Below, piece after piece: positions 34,878-51,796 of a stretch of DNA of 64,000 nt (position 1 is the stretch's first letter; every line of letters begins with the position of its first letter). The position numbers and the translations under genes are program-made. The notes under the pieces were generated by a model. That model was not told where the DNA came from. It ran no database searches and saw only the letters and a program-made list of their open reading frames with translations. Origin of the DNA: Roseovarius confluentis (GTDB taxonomy: Bacteria > Pseudomonadota > Alphaproteobacteria > Rhodobacterales > Rhodobacteraceae); assembly GCF_002917925.1 (NCBI RefSeq), contig NZ_PPFE01000001.1, positions 372,001 to 436,000 of the forward strand, given 5' to 3'.

Positions 34878-35483
34878 CTAGCTAAGCTCAGAAACTTTCG
34901 TTTGGTCGGTGTCCAAGTCCTCCATGTCTTGATAGCGATCGCCAATTCGAGCATGAGGGCGTCCTCCAGTCGCACCGCCGATCGCAATCAAGATTTCATC
35001 CGGCCCCGGAGCGTCGGCGACGCAAAACTCAGCAGACAGGAAATGCGATCGAGCCCCGCCCTCCGATATGCTTTTCAGCGGAAACGTCACCAATTGTCCT
35101 GGCCCGCCGCGTGTATTGATGAACGGAATGAATTCAGCGCTCTTCACCGCTTCTCGCAAGTAATTGCCGAACCTCAGAGTGTGGATGAAAGCCGAACCAT
35201 GCTCGATCTCGCCGTTCACGCCGACAATCGCAGCCTTGCCAAAAGCCTCCACCTTCTCGGCGCCGCCCAAAAGTTCCATGAGCTGCGGCACCATCTCCTG
35301 CCCGAGGACCGGTGCCATCGCGTGTATTTCCGGCCGGAGATCCTGAACAAAGCCGCGTCCGGCCCAAGGATTCTCAAAAACGGCGGCAACTGCCGCGATA
35401 CGAAGCGGCCGCTCTGCTGATTTTCCGCCTTCCACCAGGATAGTTTCCATATGGGAGACGTATTTTCTGACTCTAGGTTGCAT
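34878..35483 (-). CDS. AA_synth family protein (PF06684-type), catabolic cluster
   Basis: 201 residues of the 'amino acid synthesis' family: an RIAAVAAVFENPWAGRG strand-loop near residue 28, FGKAAIVGVNGEIEHGSAFIHT around 80-102, and LLIAIGG-type ending (EILIAIGGATGGRPHARIGD). Despite its name the family has no firm biochemical role; homologues recur beside LLM flavin monooxygenases and hydrolases. Here it is the last gene of the minus-strand cluster, 14 bp behind the alpha/beta hydrolase, so a step late in breakdown of a ring-opened product is likely. The 39-residue N-terminus is short and soluble. Confidence 0.75.
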   Translation of the reverse strand: MQPRVRKYVSHMETILVEGGKSAERPLRIAAVAAVFENPWAGRGFVQDLRPEIHAMAPVLGQEMVPQLMELLGGAEKVEAFGKAAIVGVNGEIEHGSAFIHTLRFGNYLREAVKSAEFIPFINTRGGPGQLVTFPLKSISEGGARSHFLSAEFCVADAPGPDEILIAIGGATGGRPHARIGDRYQDMEDLDTDQTKVSELS

Positions 35484-35497
35484 TGAGGAGTTCTCCC

Positions 35498-36301
35498 TTA
35501 GGAATGGTCAGGCAGATGGGGTGCCAGAAATTTGTTGAGATGGTTGGCGACGGTTTGGGGGGCTTCTAGCAGGATCGAGTGCTTCAACTTGTCGAGGACA
35601 ACTAGTTCGGAGCCGCGGATTCGATCATGCATCAGTCGAGCCATCCGGGTGTTCGATCCGATGTCATTCTCTCCGGTCATCACCAGCGTCGGTGTTTTGA
35701 TCTGGTCCAGTTGATCTCCCAGGTCGCTTTCAGCCAGGACATTGTAAGCGGCCATGTAGCACTCGGGGTCATTCGCCCGAGCTTGTTCTCGGCGTCGCGC
35801 GATGATTTCCGGGTTCTTGGCAATGAACTCTTCCGTGAACCAGCGTTCGACTGCGTTGGCGAGGTGGGTCAAGGGGCCTTCGCGCTGCAAAATATCGCGA
35901 CGCTGAAGAACGCGCTCGCGCTCGTCCGCGCTACGCCCCGCAACTGTCGATAAAAGGCAAAGAGCATTCAGCCGGTCAGGGTGATCCAAGGCGATGCGCT
36001 GCGCGATCAGCCCGCCCAATGAAAAGCCGACGATCGCGAAGCGCTCAAGGTCACAGTGATCTGCCAGCGCGATGACGTCAGCGGCCATACCACGGAGCGT
36101 ATAGGGACCAGTCAATCGTGCGCTCTCCCCGTGACCGCGCAAATCAGGCCGCAGATAGGTTCGTCTCTTATCCAGATGAGGAAAAACTGGATCCCAGGCG
36201 GCGCGATTGGACCCCACGCCGTGCACCAGCATAACGGCAGGTCCTTCACCCTTGCGATCGTAGGCAAAAGCGGCTCCTTCAGGCGTGTGATAGATTTCCA
36301 T
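35498..36301 (-). CDS. Alpha/beta hydrolase (RutD/TgnD-like context)
   Basis: 267 residues, canonical fold: oxyanion loop LVHGVGSN (25-32), nucleophile elbow GFSLGG with Ser94, acidic residue in TGENDIGS (~214) and His in KHSILLEAP (~243). Closest general resemblance is to 3-oxoadipate enol-lactonase and Rut-type aminoacrylate hydrolases. It lies 6 bp behind the LLM oxygenase gene. In trigonelline degradation an alpha/beta hydrolase splits the N-methylformamido-methylene-succinate intermediate, and a comparable amide or enamine hydrolysis is inferred here. Confidence 0.88.
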   Translation of the reverse strand: MEIYHTPEGAAFAYDRKGEGPAVMLVHGVGSNRAAWDPVFPHLDKRRTYLRPDLRGHGESARLTGPYTLRGMAADVIALADHCDLERFAIVGFSLGGLIAQRIALDHPDRLNALCLLSTVAGRSADERERVLQRRDILQREGPLTHLANAVERWFTEEFIAKNPEIIARRREQARANDPECYMAAYNVLAESDLGDQLDQIKTPTLVMTGENDIGSNTRMARLMHDRIRGSELVVLDKLKHSILLEAPQTVANHLNKFLAPHLPDHS

Positions 36302-36307
36302 GTGACC

Positions 36308-37384
36308 CTATCCGCCCTGAGCCACCATTGCCGGCTTGCCAGCCGCGTTCCCTGTGTTCTGGAAATACGGGATCACATGTTCGCAGAACAGTTCCAGCGA
36401 TCGCCGTGCTCTCTTGTGCGGCAGGAAGAAGGACGTGCCCAGGATCACGTGATCGACACCAACCTCCTGATATTTCTTGATCTTGGCGATAATCTCTTCC
36501 GGTGTGCCCAAAAGCATATTCTCGGTTAGGGCGTCGGGCTGATATTCACCGCGGTTGGCTACAATGTCGAAATCCACAGCCTCCGGGTATCCATGCCGAA
36601 CCTCGCCGATGTTCTTGAACAGGTTTTCGAAACTGCGACCGAAATCGATCATCGCGCGGATCGCGTCATCACGTCCGGCGTCATCTTCATATACGCACCC
36701 TGTGCGCAGCGTGGCATGTTCGATCGGGCCCTTGCTGTGGCTGGCGGCCTGGACGAACTTGGACTGCAGGTCGCGCACTTCATCGAAGGGCTTGCGCAAC
36801 GCGGTCGACATGATGTTGCATCCGTTTTGCGCCGCAAATTCGAATGTGTTGGGGTCGCGCGCGGCAACCCACATCGGCGGGCGTTTCTGAATGGGTCGCG
36901 GCACACAAGCAGTTTCGGGGAAATTCCAGAGTTCACCGTCATGAGCGTAGTCGCGCTCCCACAGAGCCTGGACAGCAGGAATGATCTCGCGCAGATAGCG
37001 GCCGCCTTCCCCTTGTTCCATGCCACCTGCCATTCGGTCGAACTCGTATTGGTAGGCGCCTCGGCCCAAACCCAATTCCAGTCGCCCACCTGTCAGCACA
37101 TCACAAAGGGCAGCCTCTCCGGCAAGTCTGACCGGGTTCCAATACGGTGCGGCGACGACCGCAGTTCCCAAGCGAATCTTCTTAGTGTGGGCACCCCAGT
37201 GCGACAGCAACTGGAACGGGTTGGGAGAAATTGTCAGCTCGATTGTGTGGTGTTCGGCTGTCCAGACGACGTCAAAACCTCCCTCGTCGGCAATCTGCAC
37301 GAGTTCCAACGCTTCCGATGCGACTTCCTCCATCGGCTTCGAGGCATCCATGCGCCCCAAGTTGATGGCAACTGAGAATTTCAT
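36308..37384 (-). CDS. LLM-class flavin-dependent monooxygenase
   Basis: 358 residues from ATG 37384; an open frame extends to 37645 but overlaps the aldehyde dehydrogenase. It is a bacterial-luciferase-like TIM barrel: MKFSVAINLGRMD, FDVVWTAEHH, IRLGTAVVAAPYWNPVRLAGEAALCDVLTGGRLELGLGRG (the family signature) and TPEEIIAKIKKYQEVGVDHVIL. Such enzymes are the oxygenase component of two-component systems (RutA, trigonelline TgnB, nitrilotriacetate monooxygenases) and need FMNH2 from a reductase, which is encoded two genes upstream. The substrate ring cannot be read from sequence. Confidence 0.92.
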   Translation of the reverse strand: MKFSVAINLGRMDASKPMEEVASEALELVQIADEGGFDVVWTAEHHTIELTISPNPFQLLSHWGAHTKKIRLGTAVVAAPYWNPVRLAGEAALCDVLTGGRLELGLGRGAYQYEFDRMAGGMEQGEGGRYLREIIPAVQALWERDYAHDGELWNFPETACVPRPIQKRPPMWVAARDPNTFEFAAQNGCNIMSTALRKPFDEVRDLQSKFVQAASHSKGPIEHATLRTGCVYEDDAGRDDAIRAMIDFGRSFENLFKNIGEVRHGYPEAVDFDIVANRGEYQPDALTENMLLGTPEEIIAKIKKYQEVGVDHVILGTSFFLPHKRARRSLELFCEHVIPYFQNTGNAAGKPAMVAQGG

Positions 37385-37407
37385 GATATTGCTCCGTTCT
37401 TGCTGAA

Positions 37408-38916
37408 TTACTTCTGGACGCGCATGACGAAGCTGTCCTGCGTCTGGCCCGAGTAGTCGATCACCACGGTTTTGATGCGGCTGAATTCTTCGATCGCGGC
37501 AAAGCCATTGTGCTTTCCGTATCCGCTTTCCTTGAATCCGCCTGAGGGGGACATCATCGAAGGGCTGCGGTAGGTATTGATCCAGACCATGCCAGCCTCG
37601 ATCCGCCGCATGAAGCGCATCGCGCGGTTCATGTCGTCGGTCCATATGCCTGCCGCGAGGCCAAAGCGGGTGTCATTGGCCTTGTCAATCATGTCATCTT
37701 CGTCGGAAAAGGGCATGACGCCCAAAACCGGCCCGAAAACCTCATCGCGGCCCAGCGTCATTTCGTTTGTGACATCGGCAAAGATCGTGGGTTCGACATA
37801 CCAGCCGTCACCCATTCCTTCTGGACGGCCACCGCCACTTATCAGCCGCGCGCCTTCCGCCTTGGCCGTTTCCACGAACTGTCCGACTTTCTCGACCTGC
37901 GCCCAGAGGGCAAGAGGGCCCAGCTGCGTGGTATCGTCGTCTGGGGCGCCGATCCTGATCGCATTGGCGCGCTCGGACAAACGGTGAAGAACTTCATCAT
38001 AGATACTTTCGTGCACAAGGCAGCGAGACCCCGCGACGCAAGTTTGCCCTCCCGCCGCAAAAATGCCCGACACCACGCCGTTTACCGCGCGGTCCAGATC
38101 GGCATCTTCGCAGACGATGTGGGGCGATTTGCCTCCCAGCTCCAATGCCGTCTGCGTCAGGTTCTCGGCAGCTGATTTCGCGATAATCCGGCCGGTAGCC
38201 GGTCCGCCGGTGAAATCGACTTTGTCCACCTCGGGATGACGCACCAAAGTGTCACCAACAGTGCTGCCGTAACCGGTCACCACGTTGAACACGCCTTCGG
38301 GAAATCCTGCCTCTTTCACCAGTTCCGCGATTGCCATCACCGCAGCAGAGGCATGTTCCGAAGGCTTCACAACCATCGTGTTTCCCAGCGCCAGACAAGG
38401 GGCCATGGCGCGGTTCAACAGCAGAAGGGGCGAATTCCATGGCACGATGGTCGCGATAACGCCGATGGGCTCCCGGATCGTGAAGTTCAACATGTCCGGC
38501 TTGTTTACCGGAATCGTGGTGCCCTCCACCTTGTCGGCCATGCCGGCGAAGTATCGTAGCCCCAGAGCCACCGCATTCGCCAGCGCCTGCATCTCGCGAA
38601 ACAGCTTGCCATTGTCGCGTGTTTCGAGGCGCGCAAGGCGATCCGCGTTCTCGCTGACGAGCTCTGACAACCGGCCCAGAAGCGCCCCGCGTTCCGATTG
38701 GGAGATGTCGCGCCAGGACGGTTTCTTTAAAGCAGCGCGTGCAGCCATGACCGCTGCATCCACTTCCTCCGTGGTAGCGTCTGCAATACGGGACCATTCC
38801 TTCCCGGTTGCGGGGTCGAAGCTCGCGAATGTTTCACCTTTTGACGTGATGAAGTCATTGTTGACGAATATCGGCAGACAGTTTCCCGCGATCTTATCGG
38901 TCGTAAATTGTGTCAT
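37408..38916 (-). CDS. Aldehyde dehydrogenase, catabolic cluster
   Basis: 502 residues, NAD(P)-dependent ALDH superfamily with intact catalysis: Glu259 in LELGGKSPH, Cys293 in GGQTCVAGSR, and PWNSPLLL and FTGGPATGR for cofactor binding. The TgnC-type enzyme of trigonelline degradation and the 5-carboxymethyl-2-hydroxymuconate branch are plausible relatives. It overlaps the flavin-reductase start by 4 bp upstream and is followed 23 bp later by the LLM oxygenase gene, placing oxidation of a ring-opened aldehyde in the same unit. Confidence 0.93.
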   Translation of the reverse strand: MTQFTTDKIAGNCLPIFVNNDFITSKGETFASFDPATGKEWSRIADATTEEVDAAVMAARAALKKPSWRDISQSERGALLGRLSELVSENADRLARLETRDNGKLFREMQALANAVALGLRYFAGMADKVEGTTIPVNKPDMLNFTIREPIGVIATIVPWNSPLLLLNRAMAPCLALGNTMVVKPSEHASAAVMAIAELVKEAGFPEGVFNVVTGYGSTVGDTLVRHPEVDKVDFTGGPATGRIIAKSAAENLTQTALELGGKSPHIVCEDADLDRAVNGVVSGIFAAGGQTCVAGSRCLVHESIYDEVLHRLSERANAIRIGAPDDDTTQLGPLALWAQVEKVGQFVETAKAEGARLISGGGRPEGMGDGWYVEPTIFADVTNEMTLGRDEVFGPVLGVMPFSDEDDMIDKANDTRFGLAAGIWTDDMNRAMRFMRRIEAGMVWINTYRSPSMMSPSGGFKESGYGKHNGFAAIEEFSRIKTVVIDYSGQTQDSFVMRVQK

Positions 38917-39905
38917 GTTCGCTTCTCTTCCAAATTGAATACATCACTCCACGGGGTTGCCTGACCCGCAAATCGCGCGATATGTCCGCTGCGGCGCGGC
39001 GCATCGGCATATAGACTGAAGGCACCGTCGCGATTCTCGCTCAGATACCGGCGCACCATCGATCGCATGCCACGAACCGGCATCTCATCAACCGGAAGCT
39101 CGTCGAGCGCAAAGATGCGATAGCCGTCTTTCAAGTCCGGCGTCCCGTCTAATGATCCGTGAAAGAACATCCAGGTGCCGTCGCCCTTGGGCTCATCGAA
39201 AACCGAATAGAGCACGTTCCAGTTCACATCGACGCCCGCCTCACTCAAACAATTGTCAAGGCTGGTGCGCGCGGCTCTAAAGCCCGGTTGCGGCCGCCCC
39301 ATGGGAACCGTCCAGGCACCGTTCACCTTTTGCAGCAAAACACCCTCTGAACCGGCCAGAAGTCCGCCCACCTGAACGCCGCCATTTGCAGTTTCCATCA
39401 GGGCCTCGACCGGCTTTGGCGCCTCGAGATATTGGCCCTTCAGATAGATTAGTGGGGCCAGATCAGACTGGTCGAAATCCCTCACCCGTCCGATCAGGAC
39501 GATATGGTCACCCGCGTCCACAAATTGGTGAACCAAGCAGTCGAACCATGCCGCGCTTTTGTCGATGAGAGGCGCACCGTTTTCTCCTGACTCCCACATG
39601 ACATCAGCGAAGCGATCAGGCTGCCGTGAAGCAAATTTGTTTGACAGGTCGACTTGGCTAGCAGAGAGAATATTCACCGCAAAACTTTTGCAGCGGCGGA
39701 AGTGCTCGAGACTTGTCGAGGTCTTCGCGATGCATATCAGTAGGAGCGCAGGCTCGAGCGAGACCGATGTAAAGGAATTGGCGGTGAACCCGAGCGGCTT
39801 GCCTTCGGTATCCTGGCAGGTGACGATTGTTACGCCTGTGGCAAAGGCACCAAAGGCGCGCCTGAGTGCGTCACAGTCCTCATTGCTGAGTCTTTGGCTA
39901 GCCAT
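38913..39905 (-). CDS. Flavin reductase fused to a degenerate Nudix-like domain
   Basis: 330 residues. Residues 1-165 are a flavin reductase (HpaC/TgnA type): LRRAFGAFATGVTIVTCQ, GFTANSFTSVSLEPALLLICI, FAVNILSA. Residues ~175-300 look like a Nudix fold: VLLQKVNGAWTVPMGRPQPG precedes a box region reading SLDNCLSEAGV, where the REUxEExGU core is mostly lost, so hydrolase activity is unlikely. The reductase supplies FMNH2 to the LLM oxygenase. The fused half may bind an ADP-like part of NADH or sense substrate; this is inference. Coupled to the ALDH gene by ATGA overlap. Confidence 0.88.
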   Translation of the reverse strand: MASQRLSNEDCDALRRAFGAFATGVTIVTCQDTEGKPLGFTANSFTSVSLEPALLLICIAKTSTSLEHFRRCKSFAVNILSASQVDLSNKFASRQPDRFADVMWESGENGAPLIDKSAAWFDCLVHQFVDAGDHIVLIGRVRDFDQSDLAPLIYLKGQYLEAPKPVEALMETANGGVQVGGLLAGSEGVLLQKVNGAWTVPMGRPQPGFRAARTSLDNCLSEAGVDVNWNVLYSVFDEPKGDGTWMFFHGSLDGTPDLKDGYRIFALDELPVDEMPVRGMRSMVRRYLSENRDGAFSLYADAPRRSGHIARFAGQATPWSDVFNLEEKRT

Positions 39906-39914
39906 TACTACTCA

Positions 39915-39953
39915 CTTCCCTTGGTCAATGATCTTGAACGCAGTCTAGGGAAG
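39915..39953 (-). promoter_or_regulatory. Inverted repeat upstream of flavin reductase gene
   Basis: CTTCCCT (39915-39921) and AGGGAAG (39947-39953) form perfect 7-bp arms with a 25-bp spacer, starting 10 bp before the flavin-reductase start codon. It lies in the 100-bp gap behind the PucR gene, the only gap over 25 bp in the minus-strand catabolic run, so a promoter or operator here is reasonable. No experimental basis. Confidence 0.35.
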
Positions 39954-40005
39954 GTGCCGGCTCTCAATCCTCAATCGAATACGAGGAGCAAACGAAGAAT
40001 TTTTT

Positions 40006-41796
40006 CTACGTTCTGTAGGACTTTCTCAGCTTGTATAGGCGCAGGGCCAGTTCGAGTTCAAAGCATTGCCCTGAATCTGAAAGGTCAATGTTGTGCTTTT
40101 CGGCTAGGCGCTCCAAGCGATAACGCATGGTCGAGACGTGAATTTTCAGCTCATCGGCAGATTCCTGCAGCCGCCGTCCGCTATTAAGAAAGACATCAAG
40201 TGTATTCAGTGCGGTCTGGCCCTTGCTTGACCCATTTTCTGCGATTGGCTCAATTGTCTTTGCAAGAAAATTCTCAGCCGTGGCTTCGCTGAGCGATGTC
40301 ATCAACGTGTTGAGCGCTCCAATATTCTGGGCCGTTATCCAGCCGCGAGCCTTCATGCGCTCAGCCAAAGTCAGGTTCCGATGGCATACTTCCTGGGCAT
40401 GAGGTATCTGGATCAGTTCCGGTATAGGGTCGGACAGTGTGATCGCTGCGTCTGGAGGAAGCGCCGGACGAACCTGCGCCATAAACCCGTCACGGAACTT
40501 CTTCTCCTCTACATCCGGAAGATCATGCAAAAGAAAATAAATCGCGCCGTCGAATCCACAGGATACGGACTGGCCAAAGGTTTCCTGGACCTTGCGTATG
40601 ACAAAACTGTAAGCGCCGTCCTCAAGCGGATCACGTCCTGGGCAGCGAATTGCCAATAACCTCATCGTGCCATCGAGACTAAAATCAAGCATTGCCGCTT
40701 CTTCCAGAAGTTCCTCCTGATTTGTAAGTTCACCAGAGAAAAGCCGCTTGAGCAGACGTTGCGCTGCATGACCTCGAATTCGAAAAGCGACGTAATTGCG
40801 CAACATCATTGTCGACAAAGCAAACTGCCCGGCCTGAACGACAATCTCCTGTTGCGGGGTTAATTCACCAGAATCAATGAGGAACAAGGCACCGACGCGG
40901 CTACCGTCTATGTCCAGCCCGCGCACACGCACATCCCGTGGCGGTCCGTTCCCCAATCGCAAGGGAACAGTTTCGCCGCCATTCGAGGACTCTGCCCGTA
41001 GCGTCTGTCGCACGATCTCGCCCAGCAGGTTGCGTTGGTTCATGTCTAGCGGCGGCCAGTCGAGATCTTTATCCATGATGGGGCGACCTGAGGTGAGATC
41101 CACAGCGAACCACATTCCTGGAAAAAGGCGTGAAAGAACTCTTACAAAATCTTCGGATTTCTCGAGGTTGAGAGTGCTGGCCAAGGCGTCCGTGAGATTG
41201 CCCAGAACTTCGCGCAGTGAATGCGCCTCTGCGGTCTCCTTTTCCAGGGCCTGCATCCTGCGCACGGCAAGATCCGCAAGATCCGCAAGACATTGCAGAA
41301 AGCCCATTTCGGTCTGATCGACTTCGACGACCTCATAAGCGTAGACGGAAAAGACGATCGCGCGGCCTTCTGAGTCGGGAAATTTCAATGGAATGAGAAC
41401 CACTGTGCGATAGCCGCGGTGCCGTGCGTCATCGCGAAAGTTGGGATAACCATCCTGCTCGGACGCATCCGGCATGACCAGGGGTTTGCCCGTTTCCACG
41501 ATCCTAACCAACGGGCTGCCGCCTGCTTCCCATTCCCGCATTGTCGCGACCGCCTGCGGGCGGAAAGGATCGTATCGCACGATGGGCATCGTCATTTCAC
41601 GCTTCAGGTCCAGCGCCTGGATTGTGCTGGTTGACCAGTTGGAATGCATGCACACGCCTTCCGTCAGACGTCGAAGCACGTCGTGCAGATCGTGGCTTTC
41701 GTGGATTAATCGCGCAATTTCCGAAACCTTGCGAAACTTCTGTGCCCCTGGCGTGCTGTTTTCGCCTGAAGCACTCAAGTGAGGGCTGTCAGGCAC
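40006..41796 (-). CDS. PucR/CdaR-type regulator with GAF-like sensor domain
   Basis: 596 residues. N-terminal GAF-like domain (~25-190: IARLIHESHDLHDVLRRLTEGVC to FLQCLADLADLAVRRMQ), a second helical/alpha-beta region, a CdaR GGDEF-like segment (~345-480) and the C-terminal PucR HTH at ~540-596 (LNTLDVFLNSGRRLQESADELKIHVSTMRYRLERLAE). This family senses small metabolites such as purine or polyamine-type compounds and activates catabolic genes. It overlaps the upstream hydrolase gene by 8 bp and is transcribed with the cluster, a typical local regulator arrangement. Confidence 0.88.
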   Translation of the reverse strand: MPDSPHLSASGENSTPGAQKFRKVSEIARLIHESHDLHDVLRRLTEGVCMHSNWSTSTIQALDLKREMTMPIVRYDPFRPQAVATMREWEAGGSPLVRIVETGKPLVMPDASEQDGYPNFRDDARHRGYRTVVLIPLKFPDSEGRAIVFSVYAYEVVEVDQTEMGFLQCLADLADLAVRRMQALEKETAEAHSLREVLGNLTDALASTLNLEKSEDFVRVLSRLFPGMWFAVDLTSGRPIMDKDLDWPPLDMNQRNLLGEIVRQTLRAESSNGGETVPLRLGNGPPRDVRVRGLDIDGSRVGALFLIDSGELTPQQEIVVQAGQFALSTMMLRNYVAFRIRGHAAQRLLKRLFSGELTNQEELLEEAAMLDFSLDGTMRLLAIRCPGRDPLEDGAYSFVIRKVQETFGQSVSCGFDGAIYFLLHDLPDVEEKKFRDGFMAQVRPALPPDAAITLSDPIPELIQIPHAQEVCHRNLTLAERMKARGWITAQNIGALNTLMTSLSEATAENFLAKTIEPIAENGSSKGQTALNTLDVFLNSGRRLQESADELKIHVSTMRYRLERLAEKHNIDLSDSGQCFELELALRLYKLRKSYRT

Positions 41797-42436
41797 GTTG
41801 GACTACTCCGGCAGGGCTCGAAAGCTTCTTTTCAATTTCAGCACAACTTACGACGTGGCCGTAATTGCCTGAGAATGCCTCGAGTGTTGCCCGTTGACGT
41901 GTCGGATTGTTCGATGCAACGGCATCACCAATCAGTGCGGTGTGATAGCCATAGTGCACTGCATGACGCGCCGTGTCCTCGACACACATCTCGGTAACCG
42001 TTCCCGCGAAGAGTAAACCATCGACACCCGCCGCTTCGAGCTGCGTTTGCAAATCCGTTTGAAAAAAAGCGCTGTAATACGGTTTGTCGATCACTATTTC
42101 ATTATCCAACGGTGCCAGCTCATCGACAATAGCAACTGCTTCGCGGGCCTCTCCGATATCGGTGTAGTATCGCCTGAATTCCGGCCTGCAAGCATTGATG
42201 GGTGGTTCAAGCAATCTCAACCATTGCAGGCGATCTTGTAGATGCGCGTAGTTTGGTGACCCAATGTATCGCGTATGCACGACCGGTAAAGGTGCTTTGC
42301 GGAAAAGAGTGAGTATGCCTGTCAGTCTCGGCAGAACTTCACGTGCATCCGGCACCTCTAGTGGAGCGCCCTGACGGACAAAATCGTTCTGCATATCGAC
42401 GATGACGAGCGCGGGTCGTTCAGTTTTTTCAAGCAT
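41789..42436 (-). CDS. Isochorismatase-fold cysteine amidohydrolase (RutB-like)
   Basis: 215 residues from ATG 42436. The cysteine-hydrolase triad is complete: Asp14 in IVDMQNDF, Lys118 in VIDKPYYSAF and Cys151 in TVTEMCVEDTARH. Family members cleave carbamates, ureidoacrylate (RutB), N-carbamoylsarcosine, maleamate and nicotinamide. As first gene of the minus-strand cluster, facing the betaine-type transporter, it most likely removes an amide or formamide group from a ring-opening product; a maleamate- or N-formyl-type amide would fit. An upstream in-frame ATG 42472 lacks a ribosome-binding site. Confidence 0.88.
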   Translation of the reverse strand: MLEKTERPALVIVDMQNDFVRQGAPLEVPDAREVLPRLTGILTLFRKAPLPVVHTRYIGSPNYAHLQDRLQWLRLLEPPINACRPEFRRYYTDIGEAREAVAIVDELAPLDNEIVIDKPYYSAFFQTDLQTQLEAAGVDGLLFAGTVTEMCVEDTARHAVHYGYHTALIGDAVASNNPTRQRATLEAFSGNYGHVVSCAEIEKKLSSPAGVVQRA

Positions 42437-42515
42437 CGGGCATACCTTGCAAAAGTTTTGGCAGGGTAACACTATCGCTACCCTAGCAAATGCCGCAATT
42501 CCACGGAGAATATGA

Positions 42516-42545
42516 CGTCTTTTTCCTATTCCAGATAGGAAGACG
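42516..42545. promoter_or_regulatory. Imperfect inverted repeat in divergent promoter region
   Basis: CGTCTT-TTT-CCTAT (42516-42529) and ATAGG-AAGACG (42535-42545) are complementary over 11 bp apart from a three-base insertion in the left arm, with a 5-base centre. It lies in the middle of the 194-bp space between the divergent hydrolase and transporter genes, where an operator controlling both directions would be expected. The PucR-type regulator is the natural candidate to bind it. Confidence 0.5.
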
Positions 42546-42630
42546 GAGCCAATTGCCTGCTGTTCAATCGTGATTCAGTATTCTCGCGACTGGATCGCCC
42601 CATCGCATGAGAAAAAGAGGACATATAACC

Positions 42631-43740
42631 GTGAGCAACCGCATAGAGGTTCGAAACCTTTACAAGATATTCGGGAATGATCCCGCTCAAGCCCTACGCA
42701 TGCTCGAGGCGGGCAGCAGCAAAGACAAACTTCTGGCCGAAACCGGCAGTGTGTTGGGAGTGGACAATGTGTCCCTGAAAGTTCCTGCCGGCGCGATCTC
42801 GGTCATCATGGGCTTGTCCGGCTCAGGAAAGTCGACGCTTGCTCGCTGCGTCAATCGAATCCTTGAACCAACCGCAGGCCAGGTGCTGCTGGATGGTGAC
42901 GACATCACCCATGTTGGCCTAGACAAACTACGCGAGATCCGACGCCATCGTATGTCGATGGTTTTCCAGAACTTCGGCTTGTTCCCGCGAAAATCAGTGA
43001 TTGAAAACGTGGCTTTTGGCCTGAAAATGCAAGGTATCGGCCAACGAGAACGCTATGCGAAGGCCGGCGAGGTTCTGGAAACCGTCGGTCTATCGGCTTG
43101 GGCGTCCCATCTGCCAGCGGCTCTGAGTGGTGGTATGCGTCAGCGGGTGGGTCTTGCTCGAGCTCTTGCCACCGATGCGGACATACTTATCATGGATGAA
43201 GCTTTCAGTGCGCTCGACCCCCTGATCCGGGGCGAGATGCAGGGCGAATTGCTGCGTCTGCAGAATGCACTCCACAAGACGGTGCTCTTCATTACCCACG
43301 ACTTTCAGGAAGCGCTCAGGCTCGGGACACGTATCGCGATCATGTCGGACGGTGCCCTGATCAGGGAAGGTGCGCCCCAAGAAGTCGTGACCGAACCTGG
43401 CCACGACTACGTGGCGGCTTTCACCCGTAACGTGGACCGCAGCCGTCTTTTCGATGCGCTGTCCGTAATGAGTGCCGAAAAAAACGAGTTTTTCGAGTTG
43501 GATTCCGAGGGGCGTCTGATCGGGTATCGCGAGACTGCTACGGGCAAATTGTCCCAGAATTATACAGCAGTTCGACCGGAAACCAAGCTTATTGCCATAG
43601 CTGGCGCTGCTCAAGGCGGTCGGCCAGTAGCCGTGACAGACGAAGAGGGGCGCTATCAAGGTTATGTTCCCACACAGGCTTTGTTGGCGGGAATTTCCGG
43701 GCCGAAGGTCCCTGACCAAGAGGACACCGTATATGTTTGA
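42631..43740 (+). CDS. proV: Glycine betaine/proline-type ABC transporter ATPase
   Basis: 369 residues from GTG 42631 with AGAGGA (42616-42621); ATG 42607 is in frame but lacks a site. Walker A GLSGSGKST, Q-loop MVFQNFGLFP, signature ALSGGMRQRVGLARALA, Walker B ILIMDEAFSALD, His switch FITHDF, then a C-terminal regulatory region of CBS-like half-repeats (VAVTDEEGRYQGYV). This is the ProV/OpuAA type that drives uptake of quaternary ammonium zwitterions. Overlaps the permease start by 8 bp. Symbol by family; substrate may differ. Confidence 0.9.
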   Translation: MSNRIEVRNLYKIFGNDPAQALRMLEAGSSKDKLLAETGSVLGVDNVSLKVPAGAISVIMGLSGSGKSTLARCVNRILEPTAGQVLLDGDDITHVGLDKLREIRRHRMSMVFQNFGLFPRKSVIENVAFGLKMQGIGQRERYAKAGEVLETVGLSAWASHLPAALSGGMRQRVGLARALATDADILIMDEAFSALDPLIRGEMQGELLRLQNALHKTVLFITHDFQEALRLGTRIAIMSDGALIREGAPQEVVTEPGHDYVAAFTRNVDRSRLFDALSVMSAEKNEFFELDSEGRLIGYRETATGKLSQNYTAVRPETKLIAIAGAAQGGRPVAVTDEEGRYQGYVPTQALLAGISGPKVPDQEDTVYV

Positions 43741-44686
43741 AATGGAAACCTATTACATCCCGCTCGATGACTGGATTCAGACCGGGATCGAATGGCTCGC
43801 TTTCAATTTTCGTCCCTTCTTCTTGCTTATCCGCTGGCCGGTGGAGGCGCTTCTGAAAACGATTGAAAGCGGTCTTCTGGTAGTCCCTGCGCTGATTCTC
43901 GTAGTGACCTTTGCCTTGCTTGCATTGTGGATCAGTGGCCGCGGCCTTGCACTTTTTACTGCGTTCGCCCTGATCTTCATTAACCTCATAGACCTCTGGG
44001 CCGAAGCGATGACCACCCTGTCGCTTATCGCGACGGCCATCGTCGCCTGCGTCCTGATCGGGATCCCGACTGGAATTTTGTGCGCACGAAGTGAATTGGC
44101 ATGGCGGATCGTGCGGCCGGTTCTGGACATCATGCAGACCACACCGTCTTTCGTTTATCTCATCCCGGTCGTGATGCTCTTTGGCGTGGGAACAGTGCCA
44201 GGCGCTGTAGCGGTCATCATCGTCGCAGCGCCGCCCCTGATAAGGTTTACCAACCTAGGCATTCGAATGGTTGACAAGGAGCTCGTTGAGGCTGGCATTG
44301 CCTACGGTGCGACAAGCCGACAACTTCTCTGGGAAGTGCAACTGCCCCAAGCTCTGCCCACAATCCTGGGGGGCCTGAACCAGACCGTTCTTATGGCCAT
44401 GGTAATGGCCGTCATTGTAGCGATGATCGGTGCAGAGGGCCTTGGTCTGGTGGTGCTTCAGGGTCTTGGAAGACTCGATGTGGGTCGCGCAGCGATTGGG
44501 GGGATCGGGATCGTCCTTCTCGCCATAATTCTCGATCGTCTGACTCAAGCTCTTGCCCACCGCCAAAAGCCAGATTCACCTAAGCCATCGCAACAGGGTG
44601 TCCGCTTCTCGATCAAAAGGGCCTTAGCGGGCAGCAGGAAAGAACATTTGGCAAATTCGGACGAGCCTATTCGGGCCGATCAATGA
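43733..44686 (+). CDS. proW: Glycine betaine/proline-type ABC transporter permease
   Basis: 317 residues from ATG 43733, inside the last codons of the ATPase gene, with AAGAGGA (43718-43724). It has ~7 membrane helices with the EAA-type loop ELVEAGIAYGATSRQLLWEVQLPQALPTIL that contacts the ATPase. N-terminal amphipathic stretch as in ProW. Its 3' end overlaps the open frame containing the binding-protein gene. Family transports glycine betaine, proline betaine and related zwitterions. Confidence 0.9.
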   Translation: MFEMETYYIPLDDWIQTGIEWLAFNFRPFFLLIRWPVEALLKTIESGLLVVPALILVVTFALLALWISGRGLALFTAFALIFINLIDLWAEAMTTLSLIATAIVACVLIGIPTGILCARSELAWRIVRPVLDIMQTTPSFVYLIPVVMLFGVGTVPGAVAVIIVAAPPLIRFTNLGIRMVDKELVEAGIAYGATSRQLLWEVQLPQALPTILGGLNQTVLMAMVMAVIVAMIGAEGLGLVVLQGLGRLDVGRAAIGGIGIVLLAIILDRLTQALAHRQKPDSPKPSQQGVRFSIKRALAGSRKEHLANSDEPIRADQ

Positions 44687-44772
44687 ACAGAATTCTACTG
44701 GCCACAATTGCACCTGCAAAGTTGAACCAGAAAAGCGCAGGTGCGCTCAACTCAACCAACAGGAGACTATAC

Positions 44773-45807
44773 ATGAATTTCGTGACCAAAAGATGTCTTG
44801 TCAGCGCAGCTCTGATCGCATTCGCCGGCCCGGTCTTGGCAGAGGAACTGCCGGGAGAGGGCAAGTCTGTGCGCTTTGCACGTAACGATAGCCTTGGGGC
44901 CCAATACGTCCAAGACGAAATATTGGTGACCCTGATGAAAGAGCTGGGCTACGAGGTCGATCTTCGCACGATTGGTGTGGCGGCCTTTCTGCAAGCCGCC
45001 GCACAGGGCGACATGGACATCACAGGCGACATGAACATGCCTCAGCGCGCCCTTCAGTTCGAGAAAGTCGAAGACGAACTGTCATTACTTGGTGACGGGA
45101 CCATCGGCGGCGGTGGCGGTATCAATGGCTACGTCATCGATAAGAGGACAGCGGAGGAATATGGGATCACCGAGGTCTCGCAGCTCAAGGACCCAGAGCT
45201 TGCGAAGCTGTTCGACTCCGATGGGGACGGCAAAGCCAATCTTGCGAACTGCAACCCAGGCTGGAGCTGTGGGGACGTGGTGGATTATCAGCTCGAGGAA
45301 TACGGGCTGCTCGATACAGTGGAATCCATTCGGGCAACGTATGAGCCTCTATTGGCAGAGGTCTTCGCCCGCTACCGGCAAGAACAGCCTATCCTGTATT
45401 ATACTTGGAGCCCCTCCTTCGTGACGGAAGAGCTGAAACCAGGGGAAGACGTGGTCTGGCTGCCCATCCCCTACGGTGCCCTACCGGAAGGCGTTACATC
45501 CAGCGGTGGCCATGAAGTTTCCGGCGTGGTGGGTTGCGCCGGGGACCAGGATCCCTGTCGGATGGCCACCGGATCCTGGAACTGGAAGCTTGCCGCCAAC
45601 AAGGAGTTCCTTGAAGAGAACCCTGCGATCGAAAGCCTGGCCGAGACGGTGCAATGGCCCCTTGCGACCTGGTCAAGCTGGGAGGGGCAAATGATGGAAG
45701 ATAACTCCGACAAAGCTATCGAGGAAATTGCCCAGAAATGGATCTCCGAAAATCGCGACGTAGTCGATGAATGGCTGGCTCAGGCGAAAACTGCGGCAAA
45801 GAGTTAA
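44773..45807 (+). CDS. proX: Betaine-type ABC transporter substrate-binding protein
   Basis: 344 residues from ATG 44773 behind CAGGAGA (44759-44765). Signal peptide to ~residue 21 (VLAEE). The mature protein follows the OpuAC/ProX fold: KSVRFARNDSLGAQYVQDEILVTLMKELGYEVD, then ITGDMNMPQ, YTWSPSFVTEELKPGEDVVWLPIPYG, and terminal ALDH-independent helices. Tyr/Trp residues such as those in YYTWSP are typical of cation-pi cages that hold quaternary ammonium groups. Because the neighbouring enzymes degrade rather than accumulate, a pyridinium or pyrrolidinium betaine is a likelier ligand than an osmolyte. Confidence 0.87.
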   Translation: MNFVTKRCLVSAALIAFAGPVLAEELPGEGKSVRFARNDSLGAQYVQDEILVTLMKELGYEVDLRTIGVAAFLQAAAQGDMDITGDMNMPQRALQFEKVEDELSLLGDGTIGGGGGINGYVIDKRTAEEYGITEVSQLKDPELAKLFDSDGDGKANLANCNPGWSCGDVVDYQLEEYGLLDTVESIRATYEPLLAEVFARYRQEQPILYYTWSPSFVTEELKPGEDVVWLPIPYGALPEGVTSSGGHEVSGVVGCAGDQDPCRMATGSWNWKLAANKEFLEENPAIESLAETVQWPLATWSSWEGQMMEDNSDKAIEEIAQKWISENRDVVDEWLAQAKTAAKS

Positions 45808-49193: not shown

Positions 49194-49898
49194 TCAACGT
49201 GACAGTCGCACCAACAGCCCGCGCACGTTCGAGACATACCATCGGCCTCTCCGTCGGGTCATTATCCCGCGGTCATTCAACGCCTCTGCGATGTCTCGGA
49301 GTGTCGTCACGCCGTTCTCCTGGAGTCCCTGGATAATCGGCGCCAGACCCTCGGCGAACGCATCCGCATTGGCGGCTACGGCCGCCCGCAAGGCTTCTCC
49401 GCCCTTGCCCGCCCGCCTTAGCGCCTCAGCCCCGTTCGGATTGCCTAATCTCACTCCACGCGCCTTTGCCGCCGCCAGCGCCTCCTTCGTGCGTCGAGAG
49501 ACCGCCTCCCTTTCCTGCTGGGCGACAAGTGCCATTATGCCCACGGTCAGGTCATTGGCCTCGGGCATGTCGCAGGCCACGAAGCGGACGCCCGCATCGC
49601 GTAGGGTGAGCAGGAAAGCGGCGTTGCGCGAAAGACGATCTAGCTTGGCTATAATGAGCGTCGCACCAGTCAGCCTCGCAAGCTCCAAAGATCTTTGCAG
49701 TTCTGGCCGATTATTCCTGCGACCCGACTCCACCTCAGTGAAGCGAGCCAGGACCTGCGCGTTCTTCGCCGCCGCAAAATCGTCGATGGCCTTGCGTTGG
49801 GCGTCGAGCCCGAGCCCGGATCTCCCCTGCCGCGCCGTCGAGACCCGCACGTAGGCGACGAGCTTCAAAGGTGGGACAGTGTTGCTGATCATGTACAA
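49194..49898 (-). CDS. Serine recombinase (resolvase/invertase family)
   Basis: 234 residues (ATG 49898 or 49892). Catalytic domain with the nucleophile in YVRVSTARQG (Ser ~residue 19), RNNRPELQRSLELARLTGATLIIAKLDRLSRN, and a C-terminal HTH region (TTLRDIAEALNDRGIMTRRRGRWYVSNVRGLLVRL). Small-recombinase length fits a resolvase or invertase. A perfect 10-bp palindrome GAGATATCTC (49079-49088) lies just beyond its 3' end, where a resolution or crossover site could be. It has a decayed homologue at 46.2 kb. Confidence 0.92.
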   Translation of the reverse strand: MYMISNTVPPLKLVAYVRVSTARQGRSGLGLDAQRKAIDDFAAAKNAQVLARFTEVESGRRNNRPELQRSLELARLTGATLIIAKLDRLSRNAAFLLTLRDAGVRFVACDMPEANDLTVGIMALVAQQEREAVSRRTKEALAAAKARGVRLGNPNGAEALRRAGKGGEALRAAVAANADAFAEGLAPIIQGLQENGVTTLRDIAEALNDRGIMTRRRGRWYVSNVRGLLVRLSR

Positions 49899-49966
49899 AC
49901 CTGCCTAACGTTGGTTTGGCAGTTCTGTACGATGGAATCCTTAATTAGTGTAGGCGCATCAGTGCC

Positions 49967-50503
49967 TTAATCGCGCCGACCGGGCTTGCAGGTGACCCTC
50001 ACGGGGTCGCGTGGAGCATTTGGCTCTAATTCATCGTCCCGGGCGCCTTCTTCGACGCTGTTGCCATCCTTGTCGGTGTAGACCGTCACGAACTTGATCG
50101 TTGTGACCGGATCTTTCATTGCAGCAGTCTCGGCCATGTCCACGCGCGTGCGCGCCACCGGTGTCAGGCCCAGTTCGGACATGTAGCGGCCCATCAGCTC
50201 CATCTGTTTGTTCGCGACCGTCAGCCAGGGCGACTGCTGAACGTATCCGCTGGGCGTCTTGAGCAACGCGGGCCCCTCTCCCAGCTTTTCTTCCGCCTGG
50301 ACCCAACGGGCGTAGGCCTGGCAATAGGCCGCGAGGGCCGCACGGTCCGCCAGCGTCAGGATGCCGGCCTCGTGGAGCGGTGTCGCCAGCCTTCGCCATT
50401 CCTTGCGGGCTACGTCTTTCAGATGCGACGGGCATCGCGGCAAGGCGTTCAGGGGCGAGTGTGCTAGCGTGCCGGCTTTGGGCACTGGCTTACGGCCGCG
50501 CAT
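49967..50503 (-). CDS. Phage terminase small subunit, P27 family
   Basis: 178 residues from ATG 50503 (alternative ATG 50512). P27 pattern: MRGRKPVPKAG basic N-terminus, LPRCPSHLKDVARKEWRRLATPLHEAG, ADRAALAAYCQAYARWVQAEE, SPWLTVANKQMELMGRYMSELGLTP. This subunit binds DNA and regulates packaging with a large terminase ATPase, which is absent here. The C-terminal ~40 residues are charged and unusual. It lies downstream of the ParB-methyltransferase gene on the same strand. Confidence 0.85.
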   Translation of the reverse strand: MRGRKPVPKAGTLAHSPLNALPRCPSHLKDVARKEWRRLATPLHEAGILTLADRAALAAYCQAYARWVQAEEKLGEGPALLKTPSGYVQQSPWLTVANKQMELMGRYMSELGLTPVARTRVDMAETAAMKDPVTTIKFVTVYTDKDGNSVEEGARDDELEPNAPRDPVRVTCKPGRRD

Positions 50504-50545
50504 TGACCCCACCCGAGCGGGCCTTGATGGCTCTCATTGAAGCCA

Positions 50546-51796
50546 TCAAGCCGCCTCCTCCTGCCGTATCGACGCGATCTCGTCGAAGCTGCGGCCGTCC
50601 TCCTCCAGCGTCGCTGTCTCCCCGGTAAAGCTTTCCCAGCGTCGGACGGCCACATCCACGTAGGCCGGATCCAGTTCCATGGCGTGGCAGACGCGCCCGC
50701 AGGTCTCGGCCGCGATGAGACTCGTGCCCGATCCGGAAAAGGGTTCATAGACGGCCTGTCCGGGACTGGAGTTGTTCAGCATGGGCCGTCTCATGCATTC
50801 CACGGGTTTCTGGGTGCCGTGGATCGTCTGCGCGTCCTGGTCCCTGTTCGGGATCTCCCAGAGCGTCGATTGCTTTCGGTCGCCCGACCAGTGCCCCTTG
50901 CCCCTCACGCAGTACCACGCCGGCTCGTGCTGCCAGTGATAATGCCCCCGTGACAGGACCAGCCGCTCCTTGGCCCAGATGATCTGGCTGCGGATCTCGA
51001 ACCCGCTGGCGACCAAGCTCTCCGCAACCGTGCCCGCGTGCAGAGCGCCATGCCAGACATAGGCCACGTCCCCGGGAAAGAGCGCCCAAGCCTCCCGCCA
51101 GTCAGCACGGTCGTCATTGGCCACCCTACCCGTCCGCTTGGTCCTGGTCGCGCCGGTCTCGTTGCGCCAGGCTGGATCGTACGCGACGCCATAGGGCGGA
51201 TCTGTCACCATCAGGTGTGGCACCACGCCCTCGAGCAGGCGGGCGACGTCGGACTTGCTGGTCGCATCCCCACAGAGCAGGCGGTGGTTTCCGAGACGCC
51301 ACAGGTCGCCCGAACGAGATACCGGAGTGACCGGTGGCTCCGGCGTTTCCTCTTCGCGCGGGTCCGCCGCGCCGCGGTCCAGCAAGGCATCGAGTTCAGC
51401 GCCCTCGAAGCCCAGGTCGGACAGATCGACGCCAAGCTCGGAGAGGTCGCCCAGTTCCAGCGCCAGCAGTTCCCTGTCCCACCCTGCCCGCTCGGCCAGC
51501 CGGTTGTCCGCCAGGATGTAGGCCCGCTTCTGCGCGTCCGAGAGATGCCCGAGCTCGATGACCGGCACTTCTTTCAGTCCAAGCCGGTGCGCGGCTTCCA
51601 GGCGCCCGTGCCCCACGATAATGCCGTTCGCGCCATCGACCAGCACTGGGTTGTTGAACCCGAACTCCCGGATCGACCCTGCGATCAGCGCAATCTGCGC
51701 GTCGGAATGCGTCCGCGCGTTGTTGGCGTAGGGCACCAGATCCTCTACCGGACATTGCCGGATCGCTGTTGCGCGCCTGTCTGTTCTCTTTGCCAC
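50546..51796 (-). CDS. ParB-domain DNA (N4/N6) methyltransferase
   Basis: 416 residues. The N-terminal ParB/sulfiredoxin-like domain (~15-115) contains PNNARTHSDAQI, GIIVGHGRLEAA and the DNRLAE segment typical of phage ParB-MTases. The C-terminal AdoMet methyltransferase of the gamma/beta class has DPPY (motif IV, ~198-201), FSGSGTSLIAAE (motif I, ~366) and a KPVE segment. No restriction endonuclease is next to it, so it is an orphan modification enzyme, common in prophages, probably methylating adenine or cytosine amino groups to protect element DNA. Confidence 0.9.
   Translation of the reverse strand: MAKRTDRRATAIRQCPVEDLVPYANNARTHSDAQIALIAGSIREFGFNNPVLVDGANGIIVGHGRLEAAHRLGLKEVPVIELGHLSDAQKRAYILADNRLAERAGWDRELLALELGDLSELGVDLSDLGFEGAELDALLDRGAADPREEETPEPPVTPVSRSGDLWRLGNHRLLCGDATSKSDVARLLEGVVPHLMVTDPPYGVAYDPAWRNETGATRTKRTGRVANDDRADWREAWALFPGDVAYVWHGALHAGTVAESLVASGFEIRSQIIWAKERLVLSRGHYHWQHEPAWYCVRGKGHWSGDRKQSTLWEIPNRDQDAQTIHGTQKPVECMRRPMLNNSSPGQAVYEPFSGSGTSLIAAETCGRVCHAMELDPAYVDVAVRRWESFTGETATLEEDGRSFDEIASIRQEEAA

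Follow-up and report, generated by a model that had tools for sequence, protein, structure and literature searches.

Here we describe a ten-gene block at positions 34878..45807 of a 64,000-nucleotide stretch of Roseovarius confluentis DNA (contig NZ_PPFE01000001.1, positions 372,001 to 436,000; the whole stretch is called the window below). A Pfam scan placed all ten genes at the coordinates and in the families given by a preliminary description of the sequence, and bore out its layout of a seven-gene minus-strand run divergent from a glycine-betaine-type ABC importer, ProV-ProW-ProX. The run encodes, in this order, an isochorismatase-fold hydrolase, a PucR-type regulator, a flavin reductase, an aldehyde dehydrogenase (ALDH), a luciferase-like monooxygenase (LLM), an alpha/beta hydrolase and an AA_synth protein. 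The genes are tightly spaced, and gene ends overlap at the isochorismatase-fold hydrolase/PucR and reductase/ALDH junctions. The features are listed below with their proposed likeness to proteins of the trigonelline (Tgn) pathway.

34878..35483, minus strand: AA_synth/DUF1185 protein, TgnF-like (PF06684, 211.6 bits)
35498..36301, minus strand: alpha/beta hydrolase, PcaD-like, with a putative TgnD-like role (Abhydrolase_1, 91.4 bits)
36308..37384, minus strand: LLM flavin monooxygenase of type II, TgnB-like, proposed ring-opening oxygenase (Bac_luciferase PF00296, 190.2 bits; trees)
37408..38916, minus strand: ALDH, with a putative TgnC-like role (Aldedh PF00171, 572.6 bits)
38913..39905, minus strand: flavin reductase with a C-terminal extension and a putative TgnA-like role (Flavin_Reduct PF01613, 140.6 bits)
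40006..41796, minus strand: PucR-type regulator with a GAF-like N-terminal part (HTH_30 PF13556, 59.3 bits)
41789..42472, minus strand: isochorismatase-fold amidohydrolase (Isochorismatase PF00857, 135 bits; PDB 6xix, E 1.8e-23)
42473..42606, no strand: spacer separating the hydrolase operon from the divergent importer operon, a likely control region from the gene positions
42607..43740, plus strand: ProV-type ATPase of the importer (ABC_tran PF00005, 119 bits; TIGR03415, 357.6 bits, under its cut-off of 483.75)
43733..44686, plus strand (open reading frame, ORF, listed from 43664): ProW-type permease (BPD_transp_1 PF00528, 93.4 bits)
44773..45807, plus strand (ORF listed from 44683): ProX-type binding protein with Asn/Arg at the positions of Trp65/His69 of E. 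coli ProX (OpuAC PF04069, 144.5 bits; alignments)

The LLM start was checked and lies at 37384; a longer ORF from 37645 reaches back into the ALDH gene. The translations, inspected by eye, put the probable start of ProW at 43733 and that of ProX, which has a signal peptide, at 44773. The NCBIfam models matched best by the alpha/beta hydrolase were PcaDC (196.5 bits, cut-off 390) and PcaD (170.5 bits, cut-off 255.85), both under their cut-offs, and the best 25 models for the ALDH were all under theirs. The C-terminal part of the flavin reductase (~165 amino acids) also occurs in PDB 3rh7 (match over residues 10-300, E 1.1e-56). The regulator contains weak GAF and GGDEF-like parts, GAF_2 scoring 27.9 bits, slightly under its cut-off of 28.6. 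The predicted model of the LLM had a mean predicted local distance difference test score of 88.3, and its nearest structures were other luciferase-type monooxygenases.

Gene order in other genomes indicates that the ten-gene block is a real unit, beyond a chance neighbourhood. A locus in another genus of the same family (L216, in genome G1140) has the genes for AA_synth, a carboxymuconolactone-decarboxylase-like (CMD) protein, the alpha/beta hydrolase, LLM, ALDH, flavin reductase, PucR and the isochorismatase-fold hydrolase in this order, divergent from ProV-ProW-ProX, with 42-74% identity to the best reference protein; no counterpart of the CMD gene was found in the window by tblastn. The core, without the isochorismatase of the window, recurs in rhizobia, Agrobacterium, Azospirillum and Caballeronia. 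We compared 15 annotated clusters whose LLM belongs to the same clade, designated type II (see below), from alpha- and betaproteobacteria; they are those fetched, not a random sample, and their partners were counted by tblastn at E 1e-10. They come from G1140, Agrobacterium pAt, Thalassospira, Azospirillum, R. etli p42f, Ensifer canadensis, R. leguminosarum CB782, Caballeronia sp. SBC2, two Shinella genomes (one with two clusters), two further Caballeronia, G880 and G1015. Matches to PucR, the reductase, ALDH, LLM and the alpha/beta hydrolase were present in 15/15, and AA_synth in 14, the exception (G1015) being cut off at a contig end. ProX was found in eight clusters and also in CB782, where it lies ~2 kb outside the stretch compared; five clusters had an amino-acid-type binding protein. 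CMD was present in 12, directly adjoining the hydrolase in 10 of these. The isochorismatase was matched at 51% identity in one cluster (G1140) and at 31% in a second, that of Azospirillum, where the match belongs to an adjacent block. The type II cluster is patchily distributed: a search of 35 other genomes of the genus found its LLM in none at E 1e-60, and 4/394 genomes of a family sample, own genome included, had it at E 1e-112.

Phylogenetic analysis separated two types of LLM. In a tree of 176 sequences, type I (113 sequences) stood apart from a 59-sequence clade containing the window LLM. In a 100-sequence tree, the window LLM and nine others, largely roseobacters by name, formed a group (support 0.994) nested in a 33-sequence type II clade (support 0.894) together with those of the rhizobial clusters; a group of 46 sequences with other partner genes (support 1.0) neighbours the type II clade. 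Identity of the window LLM to type I LLMs is 36-43%. Type I clusters are exemplified by those of S. meliloti pSymA (~430-441 kb), R. etli p42c, Pantoea, Leisingera and contig C25 of the R. confluentis genome itself, which carries AA_synth, hydrolase, reductase, LLM (36-38% identity to that of the window) and ALDH genes. The surroundings of 80 named type I loci, searched at E 1e-10, gave matches for AA_synth (80), hydrolase (80), ALDH (80), reductase (79), a GntR regulator (75) and PucR (1); neither ProX nor the isochorismatase was found at any of the 80. The PucR regulator, which the preliminary description had singled out as distinguishing the cluster, thus does so with respect to type I. ORF by ORF at a laxer E of 1e-6, the isochorismatase was matched at two of these loci and a close succinate semialdehyde dehydrogenase (SSADH) at 18.

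The two types coexist in the R. confluentis genome, which has one of each, in G1015, and in R. etli CFN 42. A search of 43 named genomes with type I, covering 43 of the 80 loci, showed that four also have an LLM at an identity of at least 49%. In Shinella yambaruensis, a type I cluster directly adjoins one of type II, suggesting related substrates. In Caballeronia arvi, one island (L285/L286) combines a type II cluster with a pair of type I LLM genes and a pair of ProX genes. A replicon listed as an Acinetobacter venetianus plasmid (CP060162.1, L007) has a type I LLM 98-100% identical to that of Pantoea eucrina, pointing to recent transfer or a mis-assigned replicon.

The binding protein has an altered pocket. 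In E. coli ProX, the quaternary nitrogen of the ligand is boxed by Trp65, Trp140 and Trp188, and His69 assists in holding the carboxylate; the E. coli sequence has these residues at those numbers. This set is incomplete in the window ProX, which has Asn65 and Arg69 and retains Trp140 and Trp188. We aligned 11 ProX proteins associated with type II clusters: all have Asn at position 65, nine have Arg at position 69 (Ser and Glu in one each) and ten have Ser at position 141 (Gln in one), and Trp140, Cys142 and Trp188 are invariant. All six other ProX proteins aligned (E. coli, Vibrio, Cereibacter, Nitratireductor, Haematobacter and Paracoccus) have Trp or Tyr at position 65 and His69. The Asn65 mark, as read from these alignments, is a new observation. 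The two facing tryptophans with the new Asn/Arg would fit a flat aromatic zwitterion. Plasmid ProX records pointed to the same association: each of the best 13 of the 25 listed (74 matched), with 42-50% identity, came up again in the lists of matches to the type II LLM or reductase, and those listed after them had at most 36% identity. ProX proteins beside another LLM cluster type (L151, L156 and L160) retain Trp65 but have Gln69 and Tyr188; pocket changes are therefore not limited to type II.

The preliminary description had invoked the logic of trigonelline breakdown, and the comparisons strengthened this point. The chemistry was reportedly worked out in detail by Perchat et al. in 2018, with TgnA-F of A. 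baylyi ADP1. At the family level only, the window cluster unites counterparts of all Tgn proteins but TgnE, five out of six, with a betaine-type importer adjoining: a two-component LLM oxygenase and flavin reductase, ALDH and alpha/beta hydrolase alongside, and a TgnF-type DUF1185 protein. TgnAB opens the trigonelline ring (PMC8269262). AA_synth is the DUF1185 family, that of TgnF. PMC7913881 calls the DUF1185 protein HcdD homologous to A. baylyi TgnF and states that TgnF stimulates the oxidation of succinate semialdehyde by TgnE in A. baylyi. The preliminary description had counted AA_synth among the features setting the cluster apart from tgn; given this homology and its presence at all 80 type I loci, that argument falls away. 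The fold of the window protein is that of its own family, and no more specific match was obtained. A third AA_synth gene of the R. confluentis genome (contig C21:128629-129150; L163/L165) appeared by eye nearer to R. pomeroyi SPO0826, and no LLM gene was recognised in the surrounding 17 kb. A close SSADH gene (at least 59% identity) lies beside three of the 15 type II clusters, those of R. etli p42f, G880 and R. leguminosarum CB782, as well as beside the type I clusters of S. meliloti pSymA (at the cluster end) and R. etli p42c.

On balance, we consider it probable that the block is a PucR-regulated catabolic cluster of the Tgn type, of type II, that imports and opens a pyridinium-type betaine; the preliminary description, taken as a whole, is thus supported in part. 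We infer the following route. ProXWV would import a small N-heterocyclic zwitterion, the likeliest kind being a pyridinium carboxylate betaine, and the substrate would be trigonelline or, more likely, a close analogue: as the R. confluentis genome holds one cluster of each type, we favour for type II a substrate related to, but distinct from, that of type I. The flavin reductase would supply reduced flavin to the LLM oxygenase, which would open the ring next to the nitrogen to give an N-formyl(-methyl) enamine aldehyde. The ALDH would convert the aldehyde to the acid, and the alpha/beta hydrolase, in this marine lineage perhaps also the isochorismatase-fold amidohydrolase, would release formate and an amine. 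Carbon would end as succinate semialdehyde, whose oxidation the TgnF-like AA_synth protein may assist. Other parts of the genome could provide for the use of methylamine: contig C24 encodes a type III glutamine synthetase, above its model cut-off, beside GATase, GXGXG and Glu_synthase genes, a set that would permit such use.

Several observations weigh against this interpretation. Five loci of the type II clade, some on short contigs, are poor in partners (L226 has none, L228 and L229 one each, L227 and L230 two each), so that the LLM clade by itself does not fix the pathway. An SSADH (TgnE) gene was not recognised by tblastn within the window, to which this search was confined. Other LLM groups with AA_synth pair with a thiamine pyrophosphate (TPP) enzyme, TauD, enoyl-CoA hydratase or 3HCDH, partners that do not fit trigonelline. 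A binder preferring glycine betaine or DMSP only had been named beforehand as an outcome that would tell against the proposal; residue by residue, the pocket differs from the ordinary glycine-betaine one, but by NCBIfam the protein is still a glycine betaine ProX (339.5 bits, cut-off 215). Finally, the indications on the type of TgnB conflict, JGI protein names favouring type II and the pSymA phenotype described below favouring type I. TgnB of ADP1 is UniProt Q6F9F6 (PMC11354265). No Acinetobacter-titled relative of the type I LLM was present among the best 80 of 266 in a scan of genome contigs, and no Acinetobacter name among the best 120 of 3965 matches in an LLM protein search. The sole one-mismatch match to an Acinetobacter 16S probe (369 genomes) led to one family, in whose 23 genomes no type I LLM was found.

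A bolder form of the preferred interpretation, which we put forward tentatively, is that type II constitutes a pathway, so far undescribed, that opens the ring of some pyridinium betaine distinct from trigonelline, and that its ProX proteins form a specialised subfamily that would hold the flat aromatic zwitterion between two tryptophans. The PucR/ProXWV variant was not found described in the literature searched, a search of titles and abstract starts that left most subscription journals and all bioRxiv preprints outside.

More doubtful is that type II is the tgn cluster itself, iso-functional with type I, the second copy being redundant or serving another condition. Besides the five Tgn counterparts and the SSADH genes beside three type II clusters, automatic names speak for it, as they do for the preferred interpretation: all seven JGI proteins named 'trigonelline monooxygenase, oxygenase component' fall in the type II clade of the 100-sequence tree, and the name was carried by 7/35 JGI-named proteins among the listed matches of two protein searches versus 0/8 in the type I list, names being truncated in these lists. 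These names are too few to decide the type of TgnB. Against it, S. meliloti lacking pSymA does not grow on trigonelline (PMC4207669), and the single LLM of this family that pSymA of strain 1021 carries (at E 1e-40) lies in its type I cluster. A type I LLM also occurs in a Moraxellaceae genome (Moraxella caviae P0074, 72% identity to the type I query and type I by tree placement), and the genomes holding both types likewise argue against equivalence.

Homarine (N-methylpicolinate), which the preliminary description had offered as a substrate, is unlikely, and the comparisons yielded no positive evidence for it. Roseobacters predominate among the nearest LLM relatives for which an organism name was listed, a pattern that would suit a homarine cluster of marine bacteria, and PMC8269262 presents homarine as a prominent marine phytoplankton metabolite; its concentrations were later corrected downward (PMC10134881). 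However, the type II clade also contains soil and plant rhizobia, Agrobacterium and Caballeronia, and the neighbouring SSADH genes, at the end of the trigonelline route, would indicate a 3-substituted ring. The authors of PMC8269262 expected steric hindrance for TgnAB with homarine. In the same paper, R. pomeroyi is reported to grow better on trigonelline than on homarine. A LysR-associated cluster is a candidate homarine operon: L151, L154, L156, L160 and L225 combine LysR with ALDH-LLM-AAsyn-ABH (the last two standing for AA_synth and alpha/beta hydrolase), with a TPP enzyme and TauD added in L151 and a short flavin reductase in L225, and a ProXWV importer adjoins it in L151, L156 and L160. 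As a candidate for the hom operon, L225 (LysR, short reductase-ALDH-LLM-AAsyn-ABH) stands level with the window cluster; no description or sequences of this operon (homABCDER) were found in the literature searched on homarine.

We regard it as similarly improbable that 1-methylnicotinamide, or another amide of a pyridinium acid, is the substrate, the isochorismatase-fold hydrolase yielding trigonelline first and the LLM route following. Nicotinamidases do belong to the isochorismatase-fold amidohydrolases, and L216 retains the gene along with the rest of the cluster. The protein keeps the Asp, Lys and Cys positions seen in solved relatives. Its top family model, at 87.1 of 370 bits, is biuret amidohydrolase, and the names of its best PDB matches, cysteine hydrolase and N-carbamoylsarcosine amidase, do not include nicotinamidase. 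Its occurrence among the type II clusters, noted above, is also narrow, and the hydrolase suits a late formamide or carbamoyl step equally; it may take the formamide or amide step in the proposed route. Its relatives in R. leguminosarum (41-42% identity) lie near fdxB, with a cytosine permease adjoining in two of the three regions read, and are uninformative as to function. Near the type II cluster of an Azospirillum oryzae plasmid (L003) lie genes for an alpha/beta hydrolase, an Asp/Glu racemase and an N-carbamoylsarcosine amidohydrolase, followed by a major facilitator superfamily transporter, presumably resembling the lower nicotinate (nic) pathway.

Opening of a pyrimidine-type (Rut) or other non-pyridine ring is very improbable: the enzyme classes of RutA/B/D/F recur, as had been pointed out, but RutB (76.9 of 377.95 bits), RutD (87.7 of 238.5) and RutF (90.4 of 254.75) scored far under their cut-offs, the LLM model lies nearest to other luciferase-type monooxygenases, and no RutC- or RutE-type gene is among the ten. 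The RutA model was not among the best 25 of 31 NCBIfam models for the LLM, nor was any of the 25 PDB sequences matched by it named RutA. Grouping of the LLM with alkanesulfonate or nitrilotriacetate enzymes, which had been named as an outcome contradicting the proposal, was not observed: the LLM scored 39.1 of 279.7 bits with the NtaA/DmoA model TIGR03860, and the SsuD model was not among the best 25 of the 31. Both readings were dropped on these family scores and PDB matches.

The 34.9-45.8 kb block has a G+C content of 56%, versus 63% for the 34 kb on its left. To the right of this low-GC block, a mobile-element-like segment (49194-51796) contains a resolvase gene (49.2-49.9 kb), a small ORF that by eye resembles a phage terminase, and a DNA methylase gene. 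Among the other LLM groups, L153, L161 and L219-L222 contain an ALDH-LLM-enoyl-CoA hydratase-3HCDH cluster, several with a GATase-AraC regulator, and clusters related to this type include Rieske oxygenase genes in L158 and L159.

Pyridinium betaines store carbon and nitrogen in plants and algae; the pool is abundant but poorly mapped. If the pathway proposed tentatively above exists, it would be spread over marine roseobacters, rhizobia, agrobacteria and Caballeronia, and the three-tryptophan box would have been rebuilt with Asn65, mostly Arg69 and two retained tryptophans. The comparison splits cluster types that otherwise share one label, LLM oxidoreductase or trigonelline monooxygenase, and identifies AA_synth/DUF1185 as a very regular partner of complete clusters. 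With the Asn65/Arg69 mark of the importer, a single purified protein would suffice to put the substrate to the test, and single deletions in the strains now named as holding both types would assign the substrates.

Compared with known systems, the pathway type is a known one, of which the window cluster looks like a sister version with its own regulator and an altered importer pocket. It shares with the Tgn system of ADP1 the clustering of flavin reductase, LLM oxygenase, ALDH, hydrolase and DUF1185 protein, with SSADH beside some relatives, and differs from it in the PucR/GAF regulator, the ProXWV importer with its altered pocket and the isochorismatase-fold hydrolase. Type I clusters contain the same five enzyme families, but in the order AA_synth, alpha/beta hydrolase, flavin reductase, LLM and ALDH, with GntR or LysR instead of PucR and with other importers. 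Likeness to the Rut pathway is confined to enzyme classes. The importer has the ProV/W/X architecture of E. coli ProU, and its ProX shares Trp140, Cys142 and Trp188 with the E. coli protein, whereas Trp65, His69 and Gly141 are replaced by Asn, Arg and Ser, respectively.

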